DNA of 46,129 bases from positions 1 through 46,129 of the forward strand of contig QZJI01000021.1 in the NCBI GenBank assembly GCA_003599735.1, in the 5' to 3' direction. The translations under genes were made by a program, and so were the position numbers. Origin of the DNA: Dehalococcoidia bacterium. GTDB lineage: Bacteria > Chloroflexota > Dehalococcoidia > UBA2979. Of this stretch, positions 1-6,655 are shown in pieces (within the stretch, counting starts at the first letter, position 1; each line of letters opens with the position of its first letter). The notes below the pieces were generated by a model, which searched no databases, was not told the DNA's origin, and saw only the letters and a program-made list of their open reading frames with translations.

Positions 1-317
1 ATGGGAAGACCTTCCTCATCGCAGAAGAGCAGTCAGTGGCAGTACTTCCACCGCTGCATCTCCTCGCAGGGACAGATCCAGAACTTCTTCTCGATCTCCG
101 CCTGCTTGTCCTCGAAGAACATGCAGGGGCAGAGCGGCTTCCCGAGTTCGTCGGCGTTTCTGGCGAGGCCGATGACGAGGAACTCGGTGATCTCGCGCTG
201 CGGGTGGAGGTGGGTGCCGGACTTCTCGGCGAAGTTCTCGACGAACTTCCACATCTTCGCCATCGTCTCGGGCTTCGCGATGGAGCGGTCGGCGTCGGAC
301 GGCTGGTCGAGGGTCAC
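1..317 (-). CDS. Ferredoxin-thioredoxin-reductase-type catalytic selenoprotein, 3' end cut by window edge
   Basis: From the GTG at 317-315 the protein reads ...KPLCPCMFF...FWICPCEEM...WKYCH, giving CPC (63-65), 16 residues, CPC (82-84), 8 residues, C93-H94. This is the exact spacing of the FTR catalytic subunit, whose signature ends CHC. The expected final Cys codon is TGA (33-35). The same frame then continues LLFCDEEGLP to base 1 with no other stop, matching the CHC-L-L-F run usual in the family. I read the TGA as selenocysteine (U95). In FTR, four Cys bind a 4Fe-4S cluster and the second Cys of the first CPC and of CHC form the redox disulfide, so Sec would replace a catalytic residue. GGAG lies six bases upstream of the GTG; ATG at 263 and 254 are alternative starts. 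A tRNA-Sec gene is divergent 124 bp away. FTR-type fold is near certain; its partner (thioredoxin or other disulfide) is unknown. Confidence 0.86.
4..15 (-). promoter_or_regulatory. Candidate bacterial SECIS hairpin
   Basis: In the minus-strand mRNA a GGAA/UUCC stem with a GGUC tetraloop begins 18 bases after the TGA. Bacterial SECIS elements are small hairpins just 3' of the UGA, with G at the start of the apical loop; position and loop agree. The stem is only four base pairs as seen and the window edge hides any lower stem, so this is tentative. Confidence 0.4.
33..35 (-). other. In-frame TGA read as selenocysteine
   Basis: The TGA stands exactly where the FTR family has the second Cys of CHC. 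TGA differs from the Cys codon TGC at one base. Readthrough restores a family-like continuation, and selC lies nearby. The alternative is a true stop producing an inactive protein, which the conserved downstream residues argue against. Confidence 0.82.
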
Positions 318-428
318 GGCGGCTCCGATACGCGAGGGGCGCCCGGCGGCGTCCGAATCCAGTGTCGGCCTCGATCCCGCCCCCCGCAACCGGCCATCGT
401 GGTCGAGGCGGGGGGTGGGACGGGCCGC

Positions 429-434
429 TAGGAT
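429..434 (+). promoter_or_regulatory. Candidate -10 box for selC
   Basis: TAGGAT ends six bases before the first base of the tRNA-Sec, which places a start site at or next to the mature 5' end. The same flanked box, CGCTAGGATGGCG, recurs at 2875-2887 before the oxidoreductase gene at 2909. No good -35 box is visible. Confidence 0.4.
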
Positions 435-440
435 GGCGTT

Positions 441-537
441 GGGAGTGGATGGCGTCCGGTGATGTCCGCGATCTTCAAAATCGACGTGGGGTCGCGTTGC
501 GGTCCCAGGTGGGTTCGACACCCACGCACTCCCGCCA
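441..537 (+). tRNA. selC: Selenocysteine tRNA (anticodon TCA)
   Basis: The 97-base gene has an acceptor stem GGGAGTG/CACTCCC with discriminator G534 and encoded CCA. The TCCGGTGA D-arm block is typical of bacterial tRNA-Sec. The anticodon arm is CGAT/ATCG around a seven-base loop with TCA at 475-477. An eight-base-pair variable arm (488-495/499-506, loop GTT) closely resembles the E. coli one, and the T arm is GTGGG-TTCGACA-CCCAC. The long variable arm and TCA anticodon exclude ordinary tRNAs. It reads UGA when delivered by SelB. selA, selB and selD are not in the window. The adjacent FTR-like gene with an in-frame TGA is its obvious client. Confidence 0.95.
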
Positions 538-4508: not shown

Positions 4509-5828
4509 ATGGTACTGCCTGCTGACGTGGCCAGCGAGACGAGCGAGAAGCCAGCGCGCCTCCCGCTACCGACGCACTTCTTTGGCCGCGACTTCTACTA
4601 CGGCTGGTACATCGTTGGTGTCGCGTTCGTCTCCTCGATGATGTCGATGGGGATTACGGCGTACTCGATGGGCGTATTCCTGAAGCCGATGACAGAAGAG
4701 CTCGGCTGGTCGCGCACGGACATCTCGCTCGGGCAGACCCTCACCACGTTCGTCACGGGGATTCTTGGCGTCGCGATTGGGCGGCGGATGGACATGCGCG
4801 GCGGGCGTGCTCTGATGGTGGGCGGCGCGGTCATCGGCGGGTTCGGGTTCATCGCGCTGGGGCAGGTCCACCAGCTGTGGCAGTACTACGTCGTGCGTAC
4901 CGGGCTGGTGGCCGTCGGTTCGATCGGTATGGGAAACCTCGTCGTCAACGTGGCGCTGTCGAACTGGTTCGTGCGCCGCCGTGGGCGGGCAATCGCGATC
5001 GGCGTGATGGGGACGTCGGTGGCGGCGCTGGTGCTGCCGACGGTGGCGAACTGGATGATCGATGTGTGGGGCTGGCGGGCGGCGTGGGCGGCGATCGGCG
5101 TGGCGGTATGGGTGACGGTTATCCCGTCGGCGCTGCTGGCGATGCGACGGCGCCCCGAGGATTTCGGGCTGCGGCCGGACGGCGATGGCGTGCCGGTGGA
5201 GGGCGCGCGCGTGTCGGCGCGGGTCGCCTCGGACGTGCGGTGGACGCGGCAGACGGCCGCGCGCACGTGGACGCTGTGGATGTTGGTCGCGACGTTCGGG
5301 CTCGCGAGCACAGGGATGGGCGCGTTGCTGCTGCATTTGATCCCGTACATGACAGACGCGGGGTTCACGCGTGCGCAGGCGGCGGGAGCGTTCGGCATGA
5401 TCGGCGTGTCCGGGCTGCTTTCGAAACCGCTGTGGGGGATCGCGCTGGACCGGTTCCCGGTCCGCCGCTGTGCGGCGGCGGAGTTCGGGCTGATGGGCCT
5501 GGGGATCGCGCTGATCCTGACGTCGCACACGCTGGCGCCGCTCTACGCCTCGATCTTCACGCTCGGCCTCGGCATCGGCGGAGTGGTGACGGTGCAGGAG
5601 GTGGTGTGGGCGGACTTCTTCGGGCGGTTGAGCCTCGGCACGGTGCGGAGCCTGGCGCAGCCGTTCACGATCGTGTCCAGTGCGGGCGGGCCGGTGTTCG
5701 CCGGCTTTGCCTACGACCACTTCGGGTCGTACACGACGGCGTTCCACCTCTTCATCGCGACGTACGTCGCCGCGGCCGTGCTGATCCTGCTGACGCCGAC
5801 GCCGGCACGTCCCGCGTCGGCGGACTAG
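4509..5828 (+). CDS. MFS transporter (OFA / monocarboxylate-like)
   Basis: The 439-residue protein has twelve predicted TM helices. It begins FYYGWYIVGVAFVSS and GVFLKPMTEELGWSRTDIS, characteristic of the oxalate-formate antiporter/monocarboxylate group. GRRMDMRGGRALMVGG is the loop 2-3 motif and GIALDRFPVRRC its second-half equivalent. ATG 4509 has GAGG six bases upstream and is preferred to 4452. A TACACT box at 4465 may be its -10. The end overlaps the convergent crotonase gene by four bases. Anion transport is plausible; the substrate is not determinable. The pseudogene at 8648 appears to be a dead relative. Confidence 0.87.
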   Translation: MVLPADVASETSEKPARLPLPTHFFGRDFYYGWYIVGVAFVSSMMSMGITAYSMGVFLKPMTEELGWSRTDISLGQTLTTFVTGILGVAIGRRMDMRGGRALMVGGAVIGGFGFIALGQVHQLWQYYVVRTGLVAVGSIGMGNLVVNVALSNWFVRRRGRAIAIGVMGTSVAALVLPTVANWMIDVWGWRAAWAAIGVAVWVTVIPSALLAMRRRPEDFGLRPDGDGVPVEGARVSARVASDVRWTRQTAARTWTLWMLVATFGLASTGMGALLLHLIPYMTDAGFTRAQAAGAFGMIGVSGLLSKPLWGIALDRFPVRRCAAAEFGLMGLGIALILTSHTLAPLYASIFTLGLGIGGVVTVQEVVWADFFGRLSLGTVRSLAQPFTIVSSAGGPVFAGFAYDHFGSYTTAFHLFIATYVAAAVLILLTPTPARPASAD

Positions 5829-6655
5829 ACACCCGAGGTGCCGGAGAGCCCGTAGCGGTCGCCCCGCAGGCCCCGCACAGCGAGGTCGACCGCGGCGAGA
5901 CGGCGCTGGCCCTGCATGCGTGACTCGCCCTGCATGTACGAGGACCATGCCATGTAGTCGCCGAGGACATCCTCGAGGTGGTTTGAGTAGCCCTGGATGT
6001 CCTGCGCTTTGTTCATCGCGACCTTCGAGATGCGCACGGTCATCGGGTGGTTCTCCGCGACGCGTCGGGCGTAGGCGTAAGTCTCGCGCTCGAGGTCCTC
6101 GGGGGCCAGGACTCGGTTGACGAAGCCGTAGTCGTGCGCCTCCTGGGCGGTAAGAAAGCGGCTCTCGAAGACGAGTTCTTTCGCGCGCTTCACGCCGAGG
6201 TCCCACGGGACGGACATGTACTCGATGAAGCCAGGGAGAAAGCGTGCGTCCCGCGCGGCGAAGACGAGGTCCAGGCAGCCGGCGAGCATCCAGCCGGCGT
6301 AGATGCAGTAGCCCTCGACCATGGCGATGGTGGGTTTGGGGAAGTTCCGCCAGCGCATGAGCAGGTCGAGGTTGTACTTCTTGAACTGGTCGTAGCGGTC
6401 GAGGCCGTCGACGGCGCCGAGGGACTCGCGGTACGCGATGCCCTCGGGTGTGCCGAGGTCGTGGCCGGAGGAGAAATTGCCGCCAGATCCCCGGACGATC
6501 AGGACGCGGACATCCTTGTCGTGTCCAGCTTCGTCGAAGGCGAATCCGACCTCATCGAGGAGGCGGTAAGACTGGGCGTTACGGTAGTTCGGCCGGTTGA
6601 GCTGGATCGTCGCGATCGCTCCGTCGACTTCGTAAGCGATCTCCTCGTACGGCAT
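5825..6655 (-). CDS. Enoyl-CoA hydratase/isomerase (crotonase) family protein
   Basis: The 276-residue protein has the crotonase core: IATIQLNRPNYRNAQ at the N-terminus, the first oxyanion-hole segment GGNFSSGHDL (about 60-69), and the second region EGYCIYAGWMLAGCLDLVFA. The usual GGG.EL carrying the first catalytic Glu is changed to AGWMLAG, so ordinary hydratase chemistry is doubtful. A family isomerase, hydrolase or lyase is equally possible. ATG 6655 has GGGGAGG seven bases upstream. The 3' end overlaps the convergent MFS gene by four bases. Confidence 0.88.
   Translation of the reverse strand: MPYEEIAYEVDGAIATIQLNRPNYRNAQSYRLLDEVGFAFDEAGHDKDVRVLIVRGSGGNFSSGHDLGTPEGIAYRESLGAVDGLDRYDQFKKYNLDLLMRWRNFPKPTIAMVEGYCIYAGWMLAGCLDLVFAARDARFLPGFIEYMSVPWDLGVKRAKELVFESRFLTAQEAHDYGFVNRVLAPEDLERETYAYARRVAENHPMTVRISKVAMNKAQDIQGYSNHLEDVLGDYMAWSSYMQGESRMQGQRRLAAVDLAVRGLRGDRYGLSGTSGV

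Follow-up and report, generated by a model that had tools for sequence, protein, structure and literature searches.

A predicted single-selenocysteine FTR-type catalytic protein encoded beside the tRNA-Sec gene in Dehalococcoidia

The window, a stretch of 46,129 nucleotides from a Dehalococcoidia bacterium, opens with base 1 of contig C8, which belongs to a genome bin of 2.0 Mb that is 70% complete. At this edge lies the 5' part of a gene, ftrB, that encodes a catalytic protein of the ferredoxin-thioredoxin reductase (FTR) type and contains an in-frame TGA. The following features were assigned:

1..317, minus strand: 5' part of ftrB, a single-Sec FTR catalytic gene; about 105 of roughly 160 codons, with the 3' end past the contig edge.
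33..35, minus strand: predicted Sec codon, an in-frame TGA (TCA on the plus strand), at the equivalent of Synechocystis FTR Cys87.
1..20, minus strand: bacterial SECIS hairpin GAUG-A-GGAA[GGUC]UUCC-CAU(C), assigned comparatively; its last paired base lies past the contig edge.
441..533, plus strand: tRNA-Sec gene (selC; RF01852, 65.9 bits, cut-off 47), divergent from ftrB and about 120 bases upstream of it.

Because the contig begins at base 1, the C-terminus of ftrB is missing from the window. The gene starts with GTG at 315-317, and relatives have ATG, GTG or TTG at the equivalent position. The 162-aa ORF at 33..521 corresponds to the pre-TGA part of ftrB with an over-long start, which runs antisense into the tRNA-Sec gene. 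When the minus strand was translated from 317 to 1 with TGA as U, the product read VTLDQPSDADRS and, further on, LGKPLCPCMFFEDKQAEIEKKFWICPCEEMQRWKYCHULLFCDEEGLP up to the contig edge. This translation bore out the original prediction of a CPC-x16-CPC-x8-CH motif followed by TGA at 33-35, the spacing CPC-x16-CPC-x8-CH-U being exact. The frame predicted to stay open past the TGA (LLFCDEEGLP) does so in the window as far as the contig edge and in relatives as far as a stop. The observation is thus confirmed, and the FTR profile match and the recurrence of the TGA at this codon in 56 distinct genes put it far outside what chance would give. Close relatives among the genome contigs carry the labels Dehalococcoidia or Chloroflexi. 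Elsewhere in the window, at 978-1433 on the minus strand, a CsbD-like protein (PF05532) is encoded beside an imperfect direct repeat at about 1190-1350, with units like GTGACGCCCTCGATGTGAGGGCTCCG.

The ftrB fragment matched the Pfam family FeThRed_B (PF02943) with E=3.5e-25 and 88.5 bits (cut-off 22), and its best match among solved FTR catalytic chains had E=4.3e-24. Its residues 17-101 align without gaps to residues 8-92 of chain 1dj7 (85 residues, offset 9), placing C64, C66, C83, C85, C94 and U96 of the fragment at C55, C57, C74, C76, C85 and C87. Both the redox pair and the four cysteines of the cluster in the CPC..CPC..CxC pattern are therefore represented, with U at position 87. We take FTR positions 55, 74, 76 and 85 to be the [4Fe-4S] ligands, position 57 to attack thioredoxin, and position 87 to be the cluster-adjacent partner. 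As expected, the TGA thus falls at the last signature Cys of FTR, the cluster-side redox Cys, and Sec would therefore substitute solely for this member of the redox pair. Among the Synechocystis and plant catalytic chains (PDB 1dj7, 2pu9, 7bzk), all six motif positions align with those of 1dj7, but the protein described here differs in having Sec at Cys87, in coming from a lineage that is not an oxygenic phototroph, and in lacking a variable chain: PF02941 was detected in none of 60 genomes, with a positive control in Synechococcus. It is therefore described as an FTR-type catalytic protein rather than a classical FTR heterodimer, and its partner may differ from that of cyanobacterial FTR.

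Comparison across genomes revealed TGA at the Cys87-equivalent codon in 56 distinct Dehalococcoidia genes and TGC in 12 close homologues, the Cys/Sec exchange that had been anticipated for this column. In the relatives the frame is conserved for ~65 aa beyond the TGA, with the stretch LLFCDEEGLPITE-LP-DHEGR-YG, and ends at a stop about 55-70 codons later. The Cys-type Dehalococcoidia proteins (loci L111-L120 and L130) share about 45-68% identity with the Sec type and have the same C-terminal extension; their genes, in contrast, carry TGC, have no SECIS, and showed no trx or selC neighbours. One genome, G005, holds a Sec-FTR and a Cys-FTR together. Judged by this comparison of genes, the TGA in ftrB is read as Sec.

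Downstream of the TGA, every Sec gene that could be tested (55 of 55) has the bSECIS core GGAA-GGUC-UUCC, which the 12 Cys homologues all lack. The hairpin begins 12 nt after the UGA, and its AGGUCU apex may be akin to the apex of the fdhF SECIS in E. coli. Codons +7..+9 (GAA GGT CTT) show zero synonymous change in 56/56 Sec genes, and in the Cys homologues the Gly and Leu codons of this region are freely variable. The lower stem, which has one bulged base in most genes, covaries: pair 15-31 is T-A in 44 and C-G in 6, counted over phylogenetically related sequences, GAT stands opposite ATC and GAC opposite GTC, and where the Pro codon is CCG instead of CCC, the opposing bases are TC or CC instead of GA. 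Measured against synonymous-codon shuffles and alongside the comparative counts (dinucleotide shuffles were uninformative), excess folding was confined to codons +4..+12 of the Sec genes, where Z averaged -1.85 with a median P of 0.035; in the Cys genes the mean Z was -0.05. The 35-nt fragment in the window, folded alone, gave a different hairpin, since the contig edge cuts the SECIS short. In the double-Sec FTR genes L121-L124, a different hairpin, of the GCGAAGAGTTTCTTCGC type, follows the second TGA.

The original prediction also called for selA, selB and selD in the genome. Of these, selB was located on contig C6 and selA on contig C61, in addition to the tRNA-Sec gene; selD was not found in the window's own bin, which is 70% complete, and is seen in congeners only (4/4). 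In each of the 36 Sec-FTR genomes, two or more of tRNA-Sec, selA and selD are present, and none of these was found in the four genomes of the family that have Cys-FTR only (G006, G015, G040 and G042). The selD genes of the congeners (G001-G004, e.g. G001:C5:63281-64216) contain no TGA, and those of most other family members contain one; the window's genus has thus kept Sec in FTR while its SelD is without Sec.

In much of the wider family, selC and a divergent trxB precede ftrB(Sec), which is followed by a convergent trxA, a CsoR-type repressor and plsX; the trxA neighbour was confirmed by profile as PF00085. Across 49 distinct Sec loci, a convergent trxA lies within 4 kb in 25, selC lies upstream on the opposite strand in 17, and trxB lies upstream in 9. 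The fetched flanks of the other FTR copies contained none of the three genes (0/16 Cys, 0/5 double-Sec). In the window's genus, selC is directly beside ftrB, and L040 and L132 have trxA 1.9-3.6 kb downstream, a position that would fall past the window's edge. As ftrB in the wider family is often flanked by divergent trxB/selC on one side and by convergent trxA on the other, the neighbouring thioredoxin is probably its substrate. The product of ftrB is thus likely a stand-alone FTR-type reductase of this thioredoxin, the trxA neighbour lending indirect support to thioredoxin reduction with ferredoxin electrons through [4Fe-4S]. These genomes also keep trxB-type reductases, so thioredoxin need not depend on FTR. 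In several Dehalococcoidia families trxB adjoins tRNA-Sec with no ftrB nearby (G008:C31, G014:C14, G048:C22, G057:C190, G064:C86 and G066:C72), and the trxB-selC adjacency may be older than the insertion of ftrB.

It is also conceivable, if rather improbable, that the Sec-FTR is real but acts on some disulfide protein other than thioredoxin, or on a small disulfide, like the archaeal ferredoxin-disulfide reductases without a variable chain. The absence of the variable chain from all 60 genomes fits such a role, as does the presence of 4tpu, an FTR homologue annotated as rubredoxin, among the solved relatives. Furthermore, about half of the Sec loci have no trxA or selC in the fetched flanks, some of which are short. 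Against this stand the trxB-ftrB-trxA order conserved in much of family f1 and the independent arrangement in L060, in which trxA and trxB both lie downstream of ftrB on the same strand. Reduction of the neighbouring thioredoxin is our preferred role for the protein.

Explanations in which the TGA does not encode Sec were rejected. Table 11 counts TGA among its standard stops, and the ORF caller closes the frame at this codon, but a true stop, in an FTR gene that is degraded or truncated with only a remnant of similarity downstream, is made very unlikely by 56 genes with the identical TGA and a strongly conserved frame beyond it, by a SECIS under synonymous constraint, and by Sec machinery in all carriers. 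The TGA site lies 33 bases from the contig end, where an error of sequencing or assembly might have turned TGC into TGA; the identical TGA in 35 further genome bins argues strongly against a local error, the Cys versions are without SECIS, and the explanation is refuted for the clade and hardly probable for the copy in the window. Genome-wide reassignment of UGA to a residue other than site-specific Sec found no support and is extremely improbable, given that the nearest homologues have Cys (TGC) in this column, that a conserved SECIS follows the TGA and tRNA-Sec adjoins, and that TGA also serves as the terminal stop in several relatives.

FTR homology, Sec coding, the SECIS, the Sec machinery and the locus are each demonstrated by comparison, at the level of sequence. 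We consider it highly probable that the product of ftrB is a stand-alone catalytic protein of the FTR type, made by reading UGA as Sec, and that it would run a Cys66-Sec96 cycle with thioredoxin. In the proposed mechanism, UGA would be decoded as Sec by SelB, tRNA-Sec and the bSECIS hairpin; C64, C83, C85 and C94 of the fragment would bind the [4Fe-4S] cluster, and Cys66 and Sec96 would form the redox pair. We infer that ferredoxin or a similar one-electron donor reduces the cluster, which would open a Cys66-Sec96 selenenylsulfide, with Sec96 on the cluster or close beside it in an Fe-Se contact. Cys66 would then attack the disulfide of its presumed substrate thioredoxin, which much of the family encodes in the adjacent trxA, and after arrival of a second electron Sec96 would release reduced thioredoxin. 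A selenide at this position would presumably alter the chemistry of the cluster.

Sec-FTR as a kind is already known, and the concept is not new; whether such proteins had been described, a question left open by the original prediction, can be answered in the affirmative from PMC2398784 and NF041072. Two Sec-containing FTR catalytic subunits (COG4802) are reported from the Global Ocean Sampling, one with two Sec (Zhang and Gladyshev 2008, PMC2398784); the second probably carries one. Reviews list Sec-FTR as CxU, and Dai et al. 2007 (FTR) is cited in PMC2398784 and PMC6006212. The proteins of 2008 and the one described here have in common an FTR catalytic chain with Sec at a redox-active Cys, but the former are two metagenome sequences, and the passages on them in PMC2398784 gave no lineage or trx/selC locus. 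The curated NCBIfam family NF041072 (FtrB_double_U) likewise belongs to the FTR catalytic family and has Sec in CxU at the Cys87 equivalent. Its members, however, contain two Sec (CPU and CIU), whereas the single-Sec clade has Cys at the first site. Against the NF041072 cut-off of 160 bits, the window protein scored 53 and the single-Sec proteins 50-55, and true members in the class scored 181-224. By these scores and residues, and by the tree described next, the single-Sec clade is separate from the double-Sec family. A lineage-wide single-Sec clade, a covarying SECIS and a trx/selC locus were not found in the open-access papers searched.

In a tree of 77 rows, the double-Sec genes stood apart as a single clade (99/95). 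The 12 close Cys genes also fell into one group (97/89), which branches among the single-Sec genes. Since the root is unfixed and the outgroup branches are very long, neither an independent gain of Sec nor a Sec-to-Cys reversal is proven. Among 251 genomes of the phylum, single-Sec FTR was confined to family f20 and the genome of the window, and a closer genome sample added f16. At L118 (G067:C120), a Cys-type FTR adjoins a double-Sec FTR (NF041072, 181 bits) with divergent transcription, at ~4884-5327 minus and 5514-5870 plus. A broader proposal is that of a lineage-wide single-Sec FTR with a cluster-side selenolate-[4Fe-4S] contact, a thiol attacking thioredoxin, a dedicated selC-trxB-ftrB(Sec)-trxA module and Sec gained independently of the double-Sec family; as a whole, we put it forward tentatively, as a possibility with somewhat less than even chances.

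Taken together, these genes represent a natural single-atom swap, S to Se, at the only thiol that should touch the iron-sulfur cluster of FTR. The swap is kept across many species that come with natural Cys controls, including G005 with both forms. With such natural Sec/Cys pairs, the coupling of one- and two-electron chemistry by the cluster-side thiol can therefore be tested directly, Se serving as the spectroscopic probe. The ftrB locus also connects Sec use with thioredoxin reduction at the level of the genome.
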